NCBI GenBank assembly: GCA_022072125.1
Contig: JAJVIH010000062.1
Span: 1-64,000, forward strand
Reading direction: 5' to 3'
Length of the DNA: 64,000 nucleotides
Source: Myxococcota bacterium
Lineage (GTDB): Bacteria; Myxococcota; JAJVIH01
Shown here: positions 21,851-35,656 of the stretch, one piece after another
Layout: each line of letters starts with the position of its first letter
Numbering within the stretch: position 1 is the stretch's first letter
Translations under genes and position numbers: made by a program
The notes under the pieces: generated by a model
The model's database searches: none
What the model was told of the DNA's origin: nothing
Seen by the model: only the letters and a program-made list of their open reading frames with translations

Positions 21851-23104
21851 ATGAAGACATTTTCACTTTGCAGGTTTTTACCGATGATCCGCCATCGCAA
21901 TCCCAAGCCTCTCCATGATTCTCCCGCCAACTCCGGCGATAAAAAACGCCGGGAAATACCCGCGCCGGGAGTGCATGTGCTGGCCCTTGTGTTCCTGATG
22001 TCTCCAGCGGCGGCATGGGCCCGCCATCCCGCGGCCAACACCATTCTCCCGCATGATGAGCCCACGCGGGTGGCCATTGGCTCTGGAGACTCCCGGTTCC
22101 GCGACAACGGCGATGGAACCCTCACCGATACCGATACCGGGCTCATGTGGACCCAGAAAGACAGCTACGCCGTCCTCAAACGCTGCCTCACCTGGACCAA
22201 GGCGAGGGAGTATGTGAGCAACCTGAACACCGGCGGCCACCGGGATTGGCGCATGCCCACCCCCGATGAACTCAAGGCCATCTATGGCAGCGGCAAGAAC
22301 AAGACCTTCAAGGGCGAGGATGTCAACATCAGCACCAGTTTCGCCCGCAACGGCACCTGGTATTTCTGGACATCGGAAGAGTCCGGCGACTCCGCGGTCG
22401 GCGTGGACTTCATGTTCGGATACAACCTGACCGAGAAAAAATCGAATTGCGGCGATGGCGGCGTGCTGGCCGTGCGCGATGGCGGCGGCGGACGTGCTCC
22501 CGCTCCCATTCCGTCCTCCGGCGGCGGAAAAAAATCCGATGGACGCTTCGCCAACAACGGCGATGGAACCGTCACCGATTCCAACACCGGTTTGATGTGG
22601 GCGCACAAGGACAGCTACGCCGAGTTGGGCAAATGCCTGAACTGGGCCGACTCCAAAAAATACGTGGCCGGATTGCGCACCGGCGGGTACAGCGACTGGC
22701 GGCTGCCCACCATGGCGGAGTTGAAGGGCATTCTCAACACCGGAAAGGTGCTGGCCCATGACAGCGACGCCGCCAGCCCGTTGCGGTTGAGCGACGTCTT
22801 CGCGCCCGGCGGCGCCTACGGGTACTGGTCCTCCGAAACGCCCAAATTCAACACCGCGCGCAATCTCGAATTTCATGACGGCGACGAAGTGGAGTTCGAA
22901 CGCACCGGATGCATGGGCTATGGCGTCCGCGCCGTGCGCTCCGGCGGCGGGTCGCCGGGCGTCTCCGGGAGCGGTCCAAAATCCGATGGACGCTTCACCG
23001 ACAACGGCGACGGCAGCGTGACCGACACCCGCACCGGCCTCATGTGGTCGAAGGATGACACCCAAAACATCTTCAATGCCTGCCAAGGACTGGCATGGCT
23101 CTGA
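21851..23104 (+). CDS. DUF1566-repeat secreted protein, N-terminal portion (ends at a frameshift)
   Basis: Carries an N-terminal segment with a hydrophobic stretch (residues about 45-60, ending AAAWA) that acts as signal peptide, then two complete DUF1566 (Lcl C-terminal-like) units and the first third of a third. Each unit follows the scheme RFxDNGDGTVTD-x-TGLMW, W-x(6-9) helix, GG(Y/H)xDWR(L/M)PT, ELK.I, then Y/FWSSE and a Cys-containing end with AVR. The frame runs into a TGA at 23102 in the middle of unit 3, and the missing part continues one frame over, so this is the 5' portion of a broken or mis-sequenced gene. ATG 21851 follows a G-rich GGGATGGG; a TTG at 21839 is also in frame. Confidence 0.8.
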   Translation: MKTFSLCRFLPMIRHRNPKPLHDSPANSGDKKRREIPAPGVHVLALVFLMSPAAAWARHPAANTILPHDEPTRVAIGSGDSRFRDNGDGTLTDTDTGLMWTQKDSYAVLKRCLTWTKAREYVSNLNTGGHRDWRMPTPDELKAIYGSGKNKTFKGEDVNISTSFARNGTWYFWTSEESGDSAVGVDFMFGYNLTEKKSNCGDGGVLAVRDGGGGRAPAPIPSSGGGKKSDGRFANNGDGTVTDSNTGLMWAHKDSYAELGKCLNWADSKKYVAGLRTGGYSDWRLPTMAELKGILNTGKVLAHDSDAASPLRLSDVFAPGGAYGYWSSETPKFNTARNLEFHDGDEVEFERTGCMGYGVRAVRSGGGSPGVSGSGPKSDGRFTDNGDGSVTDTRTGLMWSKDDTQNIFNACQGLAWL

Positions 23105-24257
23105 TTCCTGGGCGCGGGGATTGCGCATTGGCGGATACTCCGATTGGCGACTGCCCACCATCAGTGAGTTGAAGGGCATTTTCGATTCGGGAACCAACAC
23201 CCAGGAGACTGGCGGGCCCGTGAAATATTCCCCGGTTTTCTCCAGCCGGGGCACGGACCTTTACTGGTCTTCCGAAGGCCCATCCTTCGACAAACGCACC
23301 AAGGTCGGAATGAGCTACGGCGGAACCTATGAGTCCACGAAAAGCGATTGCCTGGGCGGAGCGCGCGCCGTGCGCTCCGGCGGCGGGTCGCCGGGCGCAT
23401 CCGGGGACGGTCCAAAATCCGATGGCCGTTTCACCGACAATGGCGATGGCACGGTCACCGACAGCCGCACCGGCCTGATGTGGAGCAAAAACGACACCTG
23501 GAACCTCACCAAAAAATGCGCGGACTGGAACTACTCCAACTCCTGGGCGCAGGGCCTCCGTCTTGGCGGATATTCCGACTGGCGCCTGCCCACCATCAGT
23601 GAGTTGAAGGGCATTTTCGATTCGGGAACCAACACCCAGGAGACTGGCGGGCCCGTGAAATATTCCCCGGTTTTCTCCAGCCGGGGCACGGACCTCTACT
23701 GGTCTTCCGAAGGTCCCAGCTTCGACAAACGCACCAAGGTCGGCATGAGCTTCGGCGGAACCTATGAGTCCACGAAAAGCGATTGCCTGGGCGGAGCGCG
23801 CGCCGTGCGCTCCAGCCGGGGCGCCGGTAACTTCCAGGGTGGCGGCGGGGGCGCTTCGGACGGACGTTTCACCGATCTGGGAAATGGAGCGGTCAAGGAC
23901 AGCCGCACCGGCCTCATGTGGACCAAAAAAGACACATGGAATGTCTTCGGCAAATGCGCCGACTGGCATGCCAGCAACGACTGGGCGGAAGGGCTGAATA
24001 TCGGCGGCTATACCGACTGGCGCCTGCCCACCGAAAATGAACTCAAGGGCATTTTCAAATCCGGCGTCAACACCCAGGCGACAGGCGGCAACGTGAACTA
24101 CACCCGCATCTTCGAAAAGGGAGGCACCGATCTATACTGGACCGATGGGGGCGGAACGCTCTCCCAGGCCAAGCAGGTCGGCATGAGCTTTGGCTCGACC
24201 TACGACAGTTCAAAAACGGAGTGCATCGGCGGGGCCCGCGCCGTCCGCGGCCCGTGA
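22090..24257 (+). repeat. Five tandem DUF1566-encoding units, about 435 bases each
   Basis: Unit starts are marked by the NGDGT/TGLMW codons near 22090, 22535, 22980, 23415 and 23855. Units 3 and 4 share about 120 identical bases (23151-23270 against 23586-23705) with an exact 435-base offset, and remain very similar to about base 23390. This points to recent duplication or gene conversion between them. Confidence 0.85.
23055..24257 (+). CDS. DUF1566-repeat protein, C-terminal portion (continuation after a frameshift)
   Basis: Continues unit 3 from about residue 10 (KDWHGSDSWARGLRIGGYSDWRLPT) and adds units 4 and 5, ending in RAVRGP. The ATG at 23055 reads out-of-frame sequence for its first eleven codons and has no ribosome binding site, so it is not a true start; the natural protein is a five-unit fusion of about 800 residues with the preceding frame. 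One surplus base in the CCAAGG stretch (23084-23087) restores the alignment to units 4 and 5, where the matching segment reads C-A-D-W. DUF1566 domains occur in secreted and surface proteins, often adhesive; the role here is unknown. Confidence 0.75.
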   Translation: MTPKTSSMPAKDWHGSDSWARGLRIGGYSDWRLPTISELKGIFDSGTNTQETGGPVKYSPVFSSRGTDLYWSSEGPSFDKRTKVGMSYGGTYESTKSDCLGGARAVRSGGGSPGASGDGPKSDGRFTDNGDGTVTDSRTGLMWSKNDTWNLTKKCADWNYSNSWAQGLRLGGYSDWRLPTISELKGIFDSGTNTQETGGPVKYSPVFSSRGTDLYWSSEGPSFDKRTKVGMSFGGTYESTKSDCLGGARAVRSSRGAGNFQGGGGGASDGRFTDLGNGAVKDSRTGLMWTKKDTWNVFGKCADWHASNDWAEGLNIGGYTDWRLPTENELKGIFKSGVNTQATGGNVNYTRIFEKGGTDLYWTDGGGTLSQAKQVGMSFGSTYDSSKTECIGGARAVRGP

Positions 24258-26227: not shown

Positions 26228-27823
26228 ATGGACGTTCACGCTGACCATTCCACGCAGCATCCTTTCGCATCGGCGCCGCCGCGCGTGCGGCTGGTCAACG
26301 CCTTCGCGGATCCCTACAACAACGCCGTCGCCACCGCGCGCACCTGCTATTCATCGCGCGTGATCACCCCCGCGGATGTGAACCGTGACGAGGCCGCGCG
26401 GGAGGTCCGCGACCGCATCGCCCGGGAGACCTACGGCGCCGGGCATCACACCACCCTTCAGCACGCCCATTTCCAGTTCACGCTGGAAAATGTCTCCCGG
26501 CAATTCCTGTGGTCGTTCCTGCATGCGCACCCGTTCTACAATTCCGAACAGGTCAGCCAGCGTTATGTGGAAGTGAAGCCGGGGCGGGCCTTCATCCCGC
26601 GGCTGCCCGGCGCGCAACAGGCCATTTATCTGGCCTGTCTGGAACGCCAGATGGCGGCCTACCGGAAACTGATTGAAGTTCTGACGCCCACCGCCGCGGA
26701 GGCGTTTTTCCAGGTTTTTCCCGGCCGGCGCAAAGCCGCGGACAAATGGAATTCCGCCATCAAGAAAAAATCCCAGGAAATCGCCCGCTACGTGCTGCCA
26801 GTGGCCATTCACGCACACCTGTACCACACCATCAGCGGCCTGACCCTGCACCGCTACCACCGCATGTGCCTGCAATATGACACTCCAGCGGAAACCTTCT
26901 TCGTGGTGAAGGCGATGGTGGCGGAGGTCCAGGCCCATGATCCGCTGTTTTTCGCGCGCATTGAAGACCCCATTCCACTGGAGCAAACCCACGAATTCAT
27001 GGCGCTGCAATCGCTCCAGACACCGGAGCCGTCATCGTCCGCGCGCGAGTTCATCCGGGAGTTCGACGCCTCCCTGGGCAAACGGGTTTCCGTGCTGACG
27101 GATTACAAGATCAACGCCGAGGCCACCACCGCCAACGCGGTCCGGCAGGTGCTGGGGCTGCCTTCCTCCGCCCTGAGCGATGCAGCCGCGCTGGAACTGG
27201 CGCTGAATCCCAAACGCAATCCCAATTTCTCCAACGCCCTGAACATCAACACGCTGTCCAAACTGACGCGGGTGCTGCACCATCCTCATTACACCTTCCG
27301 CAAGCTGTTGAGCCATACCGCGGACTCCCAGGATCAGCGCCACCGCATGACCCCGGCCTCGCGTCCGATCCTGCACCGGCATTACGCGGGAGGAGAGCCC
27401 GACGTGGTGATGCCGTCGCTGATGCTGCTGAACGGCGAGGCGCGGGAACTCTACGACACCGCATGCGCGTCCGCCTGGCAGGACGTAGACGCCCTTCTCG
27501 ACGCCGGAACGCCGCCTGAATTCGCCCTGTGCCTTCTGCCCAACGGCGTCAGCATCCGCTTCGAGGAATCGGGCGATCTGCTCAATCTCCATCACAAATG
27601 GACCACCCGCCTCTGCTACACCGCCCAGGAAGAGATATGGCGCGCCTGCCTGGATGAGGTCACGCAGATTGAAGCCTTGCATCCCACCCTGGGAAAATAC
27701 CTGCGGCCGCCCTGCAATATCCGGGAAATGTCCGGGGTGCGCCCCCCCTGCCCGGAAGGTCCGCGCTTCTGCGGGGTTGTGGTGTGGCGGCTGTCCCCGG
27801 GCGTCTACGCGCGCGTGATCTGA
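26228..27823 (+). CDS. Duplicated ThyX-like (flavin-dependent thymidylate synthase family) protein
   Basis: 531 residues with two consecutive ThyX-like domains, roughly 10-260 and 275-531. ThyX makes dTMP from dUMP using FAD and methylenetetrahydrofolate. The first domain keeps the fold pattern (ATARTCYSS, HHTTLQHAHFQFTLENVSRQ, NSEQVSQRYVE), but the usual ThyX signature RHRxxSxNExSxRY is replaced by HAHPFYNSEQVSQRY, so two of its basic residues are missing. The second domain has QRHRMTPASRP and HKWTTRLCYTAQEEIW. A single-domain ThyX is about 220-300 residues. Either the two halves jointly form the active site or the protein has another function. ATG 26228 is chosen because similarity begins there. 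Confidence 0.75.
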   Translation: MDVHADHSTQHPFASAPPRVRLVNAFADPYNNAVATARTCYSSRVITPADVNRDEAAREVRDRIARETYGAGHHTTLQHAHFQFTLENVSRQFLWSFLHAHPFYNSEQVSQRYVEVKPGRAFIPRLPGAQQAIYLACLERQMAAYRKLIEVLTPTAAEAFFQVFPGRRKAADKWNSAIKKKSQEIARYVLPVAIHAHLYHTISGLTLHRYHRMCLQYDTPAETFFVVKAMVAEVQAHDPLFFARIEDPIPLEQTHEFMALQSLQTPEPSSSAREFIREFDASLGKRVSVLTDYKINAEATTANAVRQVLGLPSSALSDAAALELALNPKRNPNFSNALNINTLSKLTRVLHHPHYTFRKLLSHTADSQDQRHRMTPASRPILHRHYAGGEPDVVMPSLMLLNGEARELYDTACASAWQDVDALLDAGTPPEFALCLLPNGVSIRFEESGDLLNLHHKWTTRLCYTAQEEIWRACLDEVTQIEALHPTLGKYLRPPCNIREMSGVRPPCPEGPRFCGVVVWRLSPGVYARVI

Positions 27824-28681: not shown

Positions 28682-29096
28682 GTGTCCGGAAAAGCGGATG
28701 CGATGACTCGCCGGCATTCGCCGATCCATTCAATACAACCGGACGGACGGGCTCCGGCGAACCCCGGATAATCCAGTAACCGGTTCGTGGCGTCATGGCG
28801 GCGCGGATCGATCTTTCCCAACCGCGGAACCGCTCCCCTGACCAGTGGCTCAAAGTGGTCTGAAGATGTTTTGTATTGAGGATTTCCGCGATCTGACCCC
28901 GTTCATGGGCCGGATTCCCCGCCGTTTGCTCCTTGACGCGGCGGGAGCGAAACCGGGACTCTTTGCGGGCGAAGCATCAAACCATGAACCACGTGGCGGT
29001 TCAGGGGGAATGTGGACCTGATTTGTTCGCCGGCGTTTCGCAAGACCTGCGCGGCGGAATCGCGGACCAGTTTCCCGGACCGGAGGAAGACCCGGA

Positions 29097-30404
29097 TTGG
29101 AAAGCAATATTCTCACCTTGAGAGGGTACGGCGTGGCGTTCGGCGAGCGCATCGTGCTGGCGGAAATCAACCTCCATGTTCCGGAACGGGGAATCGTCAA
29201 TCTGGTGGGCCCGGGGGGAGCGGGGAAATCCACGTTGATGCGTTCGCTTTGCGGCCTCAATTCCGCGCAGCCCTCTTTCCGCACCTGGGGAGAGGCGCGC
29301 TTTGCTGGCGATCAACTGGGCGCCGGCGAACTTCCCGCGATGGTGGGGCAGAATGCGCGGCTGCTGGTATCCACCGTGTTTGACAATATTGTTCACGGGC
29401 TGCCCGAGCGCGACAGGCTGACCCGCGGCGCGCAACGGGATCTGGCGCAACGCATGCTCCGGCAAAGCGGCCTTGAACCTCTTTCCGGCAAGCTGGATCA
29501 GGAGGTGATCACCCTTCCGCTGCACCAGCAACGGCAGATATCCATCGTGCGCCAGGTCGCGGCCGGACCGCGCATGATCTGCGTGGACGAGGTGACCAGC
29601 GATATTGACGGCCCAGGCGAGGAAGCCCTCCTGAAACAGTTGAGGGATGAATCCCTGCGCCGGGCGATCCTCTTCGCCACCCACAACCAGCGGCACGCCC
29701 GCGAACTGGGCGGACTCACCGCGCTGCTGGCGGGAGGACGCATCCAGGAATGCTCTCCAACCGGACAGTTTTTTTCCGCACCGGTTTCCCAGGCCGCGCG
29801 CCAGTGGATACTCAACGGAAGCTGCAGCCTGCCCTCGCCCGATACCCCACCCGAATTTCTGGCGGAGGATGCGCCGCCCCCGCCCCCGCTGCCGCGGGAA
29901 GCAACCGAATATATCAGCGACGCATTTGGCCCGCGCGGTTTCCGCTGGCTGATCAAAGGAAGGCTGGGCGGCTCCCCCCGGCCAGGGGTGGTGGATGATA
30001 TCGAGCACGATTTGGCTGCGCTCAGGCGGGTGGGCGTGAATATCCTGATCACCCTTGAAACCACGTCACTCAACGCCGCCCTGCTCAAACGCCACGACAT
30101 CATGGGCATCCATTTTCCCATCGAAGACATGAAGGCCCCGGAAATTGATCACGCGCTAAAGATCTGCGCCGCGGTTGAAAACTGGATGAGCGCAGGCTCC
30201 ACCGTGGCTTACCACTGTCTTGCCGGTCTTGGACGGACGGGGGCCATGCTGGCGGCCCAATTGATCTGGAACGGCGCGAGCGCGCTGGAAGCCATCGAAA
30301 AGGCGCGGGCGATTGAACCCCGCTGGATTCAGTCCGGCGCACAAATCAATTTCCTGAAGGCTTTTTCCGGCGTGGTCCGGCGGCGGAGGGAATTGGCGCC
30401 ATAG
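29097..30404 (+). CDS. ABC-type ATPase fused to a dual-specificity/tyrosine phosphatase domain
   Basis: A single 435-residue polypeptide with two enzymes. Residues about 1-225 form an ABC ATPase of importer type: Walker A GPGGAGKST (38-46), a Q-loop (VGQNARLL), Walker B MICVDEVTSDID and H-loop ATHN. The signature LSGGQ is absent; the position reads LPLHQQRQ. A Pro/Glu-rich linker (about 255-280) leads to a phosphatase domain whose P-loop is HCLAGLGRTG (Cys374, Arg380), the C-x5-R motif of cysteine-dependent phosphatases, preceded by an acidic loop (HFPIEDMKAPE). No membrane helix or permease is nearby. A TTG start at 29097 is chosen because GGAGG (29082-29086) lies at good spacing. Function is unknown; it could couple ATP binding to phosphoprotein or phosphosugar turnover. 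Confidence 0.85.
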   Translation: MESNILTLRGYGVAFGERIVLAEINLHVPERGIVNLVGPGGAGKSTLMRSLCGLNSAQPSFRTWGEARFAGDQLGAGELPAMVGQNARLLVSTVFDNIVHGLPERDRLTRGAQRDLAQRMLRQSGLEPLSGKLDQEVITLPLHQQRQISIVRQVAAGPRMICVDEVTSDIDGPGEEALLKQLRDESLRRAILFATHNQRHARELGGLTALLAGGRIQECSPTGQFFSAPVSQAARQWILNGSCSLPSPDTPPEFLAEDAPPPPPLPREATEYISDAFGPRGFRWLIKGRLGGSPRPGVVDDIEHDLAALRRVGVNILITLETTSLNAALLKRHDIMGIHFPIEDMKAPEIDHALKICAAVENWMSAGSTVAYHCLAGLGRTGAMLAAQLIWNGASALEAIEKARAIEPRWIQSGAQINFLKAFSGVVRRRRELAP

Positions 30405-31393
30405 TCTCCCCATTCCTGCCGAAGCCGCATCCGGTTGCTGGCGGAGACGAAGCAAGGCCCCGCGGCGGAGCCCATCTGATGCGGGGATGCGCCACCCTCA
30501 TGGTTGCGGCGGCCTGCGGCGAAAACCAGTGCGGACCCCCTCCGTCACGAATGAAAACAATCCTTCCATCCATCTTGAAATTCACAAGCCGGCAAATAAG
30601 CAGACGAATGGCGGAAGACTACTGGTTGACGTTCGATGTGGCGGCGGCGCCGGACGTCAGTGGACCGGGGAAGGGGAGGATTTCCAGCAGCAATGCGGAT
30701 GAACCATCCTGTCGAACACCGTGGAGACGCTTCAGTCAGAGGCCGGGAGCCATTGCGAGGGGGTGGTTCCGCCGTGGAACCCGTCACGGAAATAACGGGC
30801 AAGGCGAATACATCCTGCGTTCCATATCCGGGCAGGCAGGACAAACTCGAACAGCAACGCCGCGCCCGCCTGCCGATTGTGAAGAGCAATCATGGCCACA
30901 ACCATGGCGGCTTACCGGTGAGCAAATTCCGCGTCCCGGCGGGGTTTCCCCGGCATGCCGGCCAGCATTGATTCCATCTGATGCAGAGAAGAGGGAGGAA
31001 AATACTGTTTTGGACTAAATTCGCTTTCCATCCAAATATGAGTTGAATCCCGGCGCCACGATGTTACCCTTGTCCTCAAGAGAAGAACTTCGCCATGACG
31101 TAAATGAAAGTTGATTCACAATGCCCCTGCGGAGGGATCATCAATTCGAGAAAGACCCGGTTTGATCATCCCATCATCACCTCATGCGCCTGTCCTCGCC
31201 ATCCCATCGGAGGCGGGGCGGAAAGGAACAGAATACGCCCGGGAAGAAATCGCCCGCGCTGGAACCGCCAGCCGGCTGGAATTTTCAACTCCCGGTTGAG
31301 GAACGCCAAACCTTGAGCAGTTCCGGATTCCAGGGTCAACGAGGGGAGCCCTGGACCGGATTCATCATCACTCCCCTCAACAAGGAGCTGTTC
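30405..31393. other. Non-coding gap of about 1 kb
   Basis: No convincing gene. Open frames at 30479-31018 and 31184-31393 have atypical composition, no ribosome binding site and no domain. AAGGAG at 31382-31387 belongs to the Roadblock-like gene. Possibly remnants of decayed genes. Confidence 0.4.
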
Positions 31394-31798
31394 ATGTCCC
31401 TTGATCGCGCCATTCAACAAGCCATCACCCAGGTGCCGGAGTGCGTCGCCGGCGGCTACGTGGACATGTCCACGGGCATGCTGCTCGGCGTCAAAACGGT
31501 TGACTCCCATCCACGGGATGTTCTGGATCTGGTCTCCGCGGCCACGGCAGACCTCTTCCAGGGATCCAACGTCACCGCCATCGAGCGCATGTTCAAAAAG
31601 GCGCGCGGGCTGCCGGATGACGGACACCACTATTTCCAGGAAATGCTGGTGATGTCCGACAACCTGCTGCACGTCTTCCTGCGCGGCAAGAAGTATTCCC
31701 AGCATGCTCTTGTGCTGGTGTGCCGCAAGAGCGCCAATATGGGCATGGTGCTCGCCAAGGCCCGCGTGGTGCAGGCCACCGTGGAAGCCGCGGTCTGA
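31394..31798 (+). CDS. Roadblock/LC7-like small protein
   Basis: A 134-residue cytoplasmic protein. The pattern (AGGYVDMSTGMLLGV early, a middle helix, VMSDNLLHVFLR and a late LVCRKSANMGMVLAKAR) resembles Roadblock/LC7 domains, which bind small Ras-like GTPases and act in polarity or motility (for example MglB, FrzE-associated proteins). The match is by pattern only. No GTPase gene lies adjacent. ATG 31394 has AAGGAG six bases upstream, which decides the start. A 19-bp bidirectional terminator follows its stop codon. Confidence 0.6.
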   Translation: MSLDRAIQQAITQVPECVAGGYVDMSTGMLLGVKTVDSHPRDVLDLVSAATADLFQGSNVTAIERMFKKARGLPDDGHHYFQEMLVMSDNLLHVFLRGKKYSQHALVLVCRKSANMGMVLAKARVVQATVEAAV

Positions 31799-34306: not shown

Positions 34307-35656
34307 TTACATCGCCGGATCGGACACGCGGCCCACGAACAGAATGGCGCCCGTGGGATCATCCCGGATCACGTACAGAAAGGGACGATCAAAGTTCAGT
34401 TTCACCGTGCGGCCCGGAGCCGATGTCGGCTCCATGATCACGCCGGTGGCCGCCGCCGCCTCGGTTCCCTTCTCGTTGACTTCGACAAACGCCTTGTGAA
34501 TCACATCGGCGATGCGCAGGCGGGCGTCCGCGGTCATGCCGGAAAAGTCAGCGCCATCCGAAAAAGCCACGGGCATGCCGAGCTTCTGCAAGGCGGCGGC
34601 CAGCGAAAACTGGCTGACGGCCTTCCATTTGGGCAGGGTCAACTCCACACTCGCGATTTGGGCGTTCCGGATCAGGCCATCCACGAAATTGGAATCAAAG
34701 GATTGTTCCATTCCCTCGAAATTCCCTTCTGGAGCCTGGAACAGCCACATCGAAACCTCGTTCCCGGCATAGGGCAGCCGCACCGCCTGAAAGCCCACAT
34801 ATTCACCCACCATCATGGTGGCGGACTGCTTCATCACCGGAACGGATTTTTTGACGCCGTCCTGGGTCGTGAAGTCGCCCGGTTTGGTGTCTGATTCCGC
34901 GAAGGTCCGCAGCCAGTTGGCCTTGAAATAGATGGCGTTGGTCAGCACCAGGGAGGTATCCGGCTTGATGCTGCCCTGGGGCAGCAGGTCCTTGATTTTC
35001 TGGCCGGTTTTGTTGGCCACCCAATCGTTGATTGTCTCCCGGGCCTTTTCCGGGCTGGCCTTGAAATCGAGCACATGCATGCCCGCGCCATAGTTCTCCG
35101 CCAGGGTGTCCAGAAACGGATCCAGGAATTTCATCCCCTTGGCGCCCCACAGGGCGTTGGCGATGCTCAACCGGAAAGGCTCTCCATCGTCCTTCGAGGG
35201 AGCCTTGGCGCCCCGGCTTTCCAGCGCCAAATCCAGTTGGTTGAAGGCGGGATGCAACCTCGGCTGGGGAAGCCGGAACTGGAGAGCCTTTTCCATTTCA
35301 GACAACGTGCCCGCCTTGGCGCCCGCGGAGGTCATGGCCAGGGCGATGGAGACGCTGGCGGGCGAAAAAAACAGATTCCCCTTCTCCTCGCGCAGTTGCT
35401 TGAACAGCGACCAGGCGAAAGCGGCGTTGCCTTCCTCCAGGGCCTTGGCGTCGGCGGGCTCGACCTTCGGCGCCATCAACCGGCTTTTGGAGGATTTGAT
35501 CAGGGTTTCATCCACGGCGGATGCATCGGAGCCGCCCGGACCGCTGTCGCCTGCCGGAACTCCGCCATCGGCGGGCTGGTTGTTGTTCGAGGCGCAGGCA
35601 TTCAGCACGCCCAGCAGCCCCAGGATCATCATGAGAAAGAAAGAGCGGAATTTCAT
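34307..35656 (-). CDS. Serpin (serine protease inhibitor) lipoprotein
   Basis: A 449-residue serpin. An N-terminal lipoprotein signal has its Cys at residue 21 (LNAC), followed by a Gly/Asp-rich linker (PADGGVPAGDSGPGG), then a full serpin fold of about 380 residues (FAWSLFKQLREEKGNLFFSPASVSIALAM; ALFKANW-like YFKANWLRTFAE; NFDRPFLYVIRD). The reactive-centre loop is complete, with an inhibitory-type hinge (GTEAAAATG). Counting from the hinge, the P17 Glu gives P1 as Thr and P1' as Ser (in PTSAPGR). Serpins trap trypsin-like or other serine proteases. ATG 35656 follows GGAG. Likely expressed from a sigma-54 promoter at 35709-35725. Its target is unknown. Confidence 0.92.
   Translation of the reverse strand: MKFRSFFLMMILGLLGVLNACASNNNQPADGGVPAGDSGPGGSDASAVDETLIKSSKSRLMAPKVEPADAKALEEGNAAFAWSLFKQLREEKGNLFFSPASVSIALAMTSAGAKAGTLSEMEKALQFRLPQPRLHPAFNQLDLALESRGAKAPSKDDGEPFRLSIANALWGAKGMKFLDPFLDTLAENYGAGMHVLDFKASPEKARETINDWVANKTGQKIKDLLPQGSIKPDTSLVLTNAIYFKANWLRTFAESDTKPGDFTTQDGVKKSVPVMKQSATMMVGEYVGFQAVRLPYAGNEVSMWLFQAPEGNFEGMEQSFDSNFVDGLIRNAQIASVELTLPKWKAVSQFSLAAALQKLGMPVAFSDGADFSGMTADARLRIADVIHKAFVEVNEKGTEAAAATGVIMEPTSAPGRTVKLNFDRPFLYVIRDDPTGAILFVGRVSDPAM

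Follow-up and report, generated by a model that had tools for sequence, protein, structure and literature searches.

The window, a stretch of 64,000 nucleotides of DNA from a Myxococcota bacterium, contains at positions 29,097-30,404 of the forward strand one intact gene for a PstB-like ABC ATPase joined to a phosphatase. The fusion keeps the P-loops of both halves and has lost the ABC signature. Its gene co-occurs across the phylum with, and lies adjacent to, a gene whose product has a predicted Roadblock/LC7 fold. We tentatively suggest, with a little less than even confidence, that the fusion acts together with a Roadblock/LC7 regulator as a protein phosphatase gated by nucleotide.

The fusion gene is an uninterrupted frame of 435 codons (435 aa) with a TTG start, and a Shine-Dalgarno-like GGAGGA (29,082-29,087, forward strand, read directly) lies 9 nt before this start. 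A preliminary description, made from the letters alone, had claimed a single-frame fusion of an ABC ATPase with a C-x5-R phosphatase, preceded by a ribosome binding site and starting with TTG; the frame and start are as it described, and Pfam hits above cut-off for both halves bear out the domain assignment. The ABC ATPase domain contains residues 9-240 (29,121-29,816), according to Pfam, TIGR00972 and Foldseek, with a Pfam ABC_tran match of 48.1 bits over residues 22-168 (cut-off 25). This domain had been called importer-type, which can be refined to PstB-like: TIGR00972 (PstB) matches the fusion with 108.6 bits and the next model scores 69.6 bits, though the PstB score is far below the NCBIfam equivalog cut-off of 343.2 bits, which the fusion does not reach. 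The best structural match of the ABC half is E. coli PstB (Foldseek, TM to target 0.82-0.85). Walker A, GPGGAGKST, is found at residues 38-46 (29,208-29,234), the Q-loop glutamine at residue 85, Walker B with the catalytic glutamate, MICVDE, at residues 160-165 (29,574-29,591), and the H-loop histidine, His196, at 29,682-29,684. At the position of the ABC signature, residues 140-146 (29,514-29,534) read LPLHQQR, to which the LSGGQQQR of PstB aligns, in agreement with the earlier statement that LSGGQ is missing.

A Pro-rich linker (residues 241-278, 29,817-29,930; low pLDDT at 275-277) connects the ABC half to a DSP/PTP-type phosphatase domain (residues 279-430, 29,931-30,386). Two DSP-PTPase families of Pfam together span residues 279-399, namely Tc-R-P (72.7 bits, residues 292-394) and PTP-SAK (48 bits), each with a cut-off of 27, and the PDB entry 25xa_A matches this half with E 3e-21. 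The phosphatase P-loop HCLAGLGRTG (residues 373-382, 30,213-30,242) contains Cys374 and Arg380, and, like the ABC motifs, it sits where the preliminary description had placed it. Asp344 (30,126-30,128), within the motif FPIxDMxAP, is the likely general acid; it is present in all seven full copies of the fusion and corresponds to an aligned Asp in solved archaeal PTPs. The AlphaFold2 model of the full chain has a mean pLDDT of 85 and a pTM of 0.64, and how it places the ABC and phosphatase halves against each other is therefore not to be trusted.

The fusion is found in other genomes of the phylum. Among 58 relatives searched, two full-length homologues were found, with 47% and 44% identity to the window fusion, and a profile search of the phylum set of 195 genomes gave seven full-length fusions (G000, which is the window's genome, G009, G022, G103, G127, G153, and G181) and two further ones cut by contig ends (G105 and G106), nine of 195 in total. 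The C-terminal piece of the G106 fusion is located at the start of another contig and carries HCRAGHGRTG in frame. The six full-length fusions outside the window are collinear with the window copy and 44-47% identical to it, and because such homologues exist in six other genomes, a frameshift, an assembly artefact, or a chance origin of the fusion is ruled out. The preliminary description had also weighed, against its own reading, the prospect of adjacent halves in related genomes and of a P-loop cysteine that is not conserved. No separate neighbouring genes for the halves were seen among the 195 phylum genomes, and HCxAGxGRTG, including the cysteine, is present in all eight copies that reach the P-loop (the seven of full length and the G106 C-terminal fragment).

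In the eight aligned copies, Walker A (G38-T46), Q85, D164, E165, and H196 are conserved; the Gly, Lys, Ser, and Thr residues of Walker A as well as D164, E165, and H196 are invariant. The LSGGQ signature is degenerate in all nine copies (LPLHQ, LPLAV, LGRGD, LSTEL, LSLGT, LPLGV, LPLGV, LPRGL, and LAAPQ), whereas nearly all of the other ABC loci that were examined keep the canonical form. The linker is found in each of the seven full copies, with a length of 24-39 aa, and is Pro-rich in most of them. Pairwise identities between fusions are about 44-49% even inside one family, and this equal distance therefore suggests a fusion family that is old, fast-evolving, or horizontally moving. Between G103 and G106, dN/dS is about 0.5 for the N part of the fusion, 0.2 for its C part, and 0.2 for the Roadblock partner, and these sequence-based ratios indicate purifying selection on both the fusion and the partner. 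No full-length match of the fusion was found in phage or plasmid records, and a single-sequence scan of genome contigs beyond the phylum, a weak search from which we do not claim absence elsewhere, matched ABC domains alone.

Downstream of the fusion, the window contains the partner gene on the same strand (31,394-31,798, 134 aa). The first interpretation of this locus holds in its true fusion, its P-loop cysteine, its absence of an adjacent permease gene in the neighbourhoods read, and its degenerate signature; it had overlooked the Roadblock partner and the conserved cassette. The partner protein has no Pfam match at E 0.05. Its predicted structure (pLDDT 88, pTM 0.81) has the alpha-beta-beta-alpha-beta-beta-beta-alpha arrangement of the Roadblock/LC7 fold, and the best PDB matches of this model are the Streptomyces Roadblock/LC7 domain 3kye and MglB (TM about 0.7). 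In the profile search of 195 genomes, close homologues of the partner (E <= 3e-67) are found in exactly the nine fusion genomes, although about 9e14 different sets of nine could be drawn, a number not corrected for phylogeny. Weaker relatives are present in G187, G122, and G025, and paralogues in G000, G022, and G106. Wherever contigs permit a check, the partner gene is beside or near the fusion gene. The two genes lie on the same strand and are separated by about 40 bp in G009, 9 bp in G022, 12 bp in G103, and 11 bp in G181; they overlap by 4 bp in G153, and in G106 the stop of the fusion abuts the start of the partner. In G127 two cassette genes intervene and the distance is 2.2 kb; in the window it is 989 bp, and in G105 the fusion and the partner are on either side of an assembly gap.

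The mean identity among copies is 46-49% for the fusion and 67% for the partner. Pairwise distances of fusion and partner show no significant correlation in seven genomes, which is a weak test because the fusions are nearly equidistant. There is no Ras-like GTPase gene beside the Roadblock gene among the neighbouring window genes scanned, and the search for a viral relative of the partner found none. The partner paralogue of G000 (44%) is located at G000:C11:84346-84723 (L093 7329-7724), and the two genes upstream of it presumably encode DNA topoisomerase VI subunits.

Several other genes accompany the pair. A gene for a DUF4388-like protein, DUF4388 being what we take to be the PATAN domain, adjoins in eight of the nine fusion genomes with varying Pfam support, and in G022 the C-terminal part of its product resembles the Roadblock partner, forming a second Roadblock-like stretch. 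A glyoxalase-fold (VOC)/DUF2621 protein is encoded in seven of the fusion genomes and a globin in five, and neither is encoded in any other of the 195 phylum genomes searched. Next to the globin gene, a CDGSH gene is found in G009, G022, and G103 (Pfam-checked for G103 only). The window genome lacks the VOC gene, the globin gene, and an adjacent DUF4388-type gene; it has just the fusion and the Roadblock gene, and these two therefore represent the core of the cassette. The whole defines a sporadic cassette of the fusion, the Roadblock protein, and the DUF4388 protein, often with the glyoxalase-like protein, the globin, and the CDGSH protein. No conserved permease gene was seen beside the fusion in the neighbourhoods read, consistent with the earlier claim that none is adjacent. 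The 989-bp gap between fusion and partner in the window (30,405-31,393) is single copy in the genome and contains no recognised gene. A repeat or mobile element in this gap was rejected, as the gap is single copy, and no remnants of the missing cassette genes were found in it.

These features can be combined into a mechanism. The ABC half would bind ATP in its own site of Walker A/B, Q-loop, and H-loop. In ABC ATPases, a degenerate signature together with an intact Walker B glutamate points to a symmetric dimer that hydrolyses slowly. Because the signature is degenerate here, the closed ATP dimer would turn over slowly, and the ABC half would therefore be a switch, not a pump. The Roadblock protein may dock physically on the ABC half, as the genetic association suggests, and set its nucleotide state, joined in docking by the DUF4388 adaptor where one is present. 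The nucleotide state would open or close the tethered DSP/PTP domain, so that the phosphatase would be gated by ATP, and this domain would remove phosphate from a protein in a local signalling pathway. Several points speak against the mechanism: the 989 bp between the two genes in the window, the cassette genes missing there, and, as a weak test, the distances of fusion and partner, which do not correlate significantly. The substrate could also be a small molecule, given the resemblance of the domain to DSP families of the phytase and toxin types. We know of no described ATP-gated phosphatase role for ABC ATPases.

A different reading of the ABC half is that of a scaffold or dimerisation platform, which may bind nucleotide and gates nothing, with a constitutive phosphatase whose location is set by the Roadblock and DUF4388 proteins. 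Both the degenerate signature in all nine copies and the fast evolution of the fusion next to its more conserved partner are consistent with such a role. However, Walker A, the catalytic glutamate, the Q-loop, and the H-loop are retained in the aligned copies, and because a dead scaffold has no need of kept catalytic residues, we regard this reading as unlikely. The nearest ABC family being PstB, in sequence as in fold, the ABC half may otherwise be a working transporter ATPase with a distant permease (for example PstCA), in which case the phosphatase would sense or supply phosphate or regulate uptake. The score of 108.6 bits against the PstB cut-off of 343.2 and the loss of LSGGQ argue against transport, as does the strict linkage to the Roadblock gene instead of a conserved permease nearby, and they make this reading very unlikely.

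The remaining alternatives concern the cassette as a whole. It may be a module for redox, NO, or electrophile stress, with the globin, CDGSH, and glyoxalase-like proteins acting upstream of the phosphatase, given that globin (five of nine) and VOC/DUF2621 (seven of nine) are confined to fusion genomes and that the CDGSH gene adjoins the globin gene. But all three genes are absent in G000 and are therefore not core; we find this quite unlikely. Most improbable, in our judgement, is that the cassette serves in conflict or defence or acts as a toxin element. The families that match the phosphatase best in Pfam, Tc-R-P and PTP-SAK, take their names from polymorphic toxin systems, and the distribution is patchy with near-equidistant copies, but PADLOC matches are weak and limited to the Walker A region, phage and plasmid records gave no full-length match, and the cassette includes no immunity or secretion gene.

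The nucleotide-gated phosphatase with its Roadblock/LC7 regulator, which we prefer, has partial counterparts in known systems. Members of the Roadblock/LC7 superfamily are predicted regulators of NTPases (PMC4316618, citing Koonin and Aravind 2000), and the co-occurring partner lends some support to the suggestion of the preliminary description that nucleotide-dependent dimerisation of the ATPase half may regulate the phosphatase half. Genes for MglB homologues lie near genes of the PATAN domain (Wuichet and Sogaard-Andersen 2014, PMC4316618; for the domain, Makarova et al. 2006, cited therein). MglA-MglB and Roadblock-LC7 modules with PATAN proteins are similar to the cassette in having a Roadblock/LC7-fold partner and a DUF4388 adaptor beside a P-loop NTPase. 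In contrast to these modules, the NTPase here belongs to the ABC ATPases, not to the Ras-like GTPases, and is joined to a phosphatase, and the Roadblock protein here has no Pfam match. It is possible, if doubtful, that the switch of a Roadblock/LC7 system is here an ABC ATPase in place of the small GTPase, with a covalently tethered, ATP-gated protein phosphatase as the output. If true, the Roadblock/LC7-NTPase switch of MglA/MglB and Ragulator-type complexes would extend to ABC ATPases, and a single chain would couple protein dephosphorylation to the energy state of its ABC half.

Compared with the phosphate importer ATPase PstB, the ABC family nearest to it in profile and fold, the fusion has no permease, lacks LSGGQ, carries a C-terminal phosphatase, and falls below the family cut-off. 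The phosphatase half shares the HCx5R P-loop, the Asp general acid, and a compact single domain with DSP/PTP phosphatases (Tc-R-P PF22785, PTP-SAK PF22784, PDB 25xa, 5z5b, and SsoPTP 2i6i), and it differs from those of bacteria and archaea in being fused behind an ABC ATPase. Each component is already known. A description of the combined ABC-phosphatase-Roadblock cassette was not found in the accessible literature that was searched. In Ruegeria megaplasmids (L091 and L092), a Roadblock-like gene, whose product is 42% identical to the Roadblock partner, has genes of P-loop NTPases and of phospho-signalling as neighbours: it lies between dynamin-family genes, of which there are four, and near genes for a protein kinase (STPK), FHA, and PP2C. 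This cluster may be a related signalling island, with dynamin GTPases and PP2C there in contrast to the ABC-DSP fusion here.

Other genes of the window were recorded as well. Positions 34,310-35,656 on the reverse strand encode a bacterial serpin (Pfam Serpin, 366 bits). Two overlapping Lcl_C/DUF1566-like repeat ORFs in different frames (21,884-23,104 and 23,076-24,257) are possibly one frameshift-split gene. The gene at 26,228-27,823 encodes a ThyX-type protein of 531 aa in which two Thy1 stretches were matched, apparently a tandem duplication.
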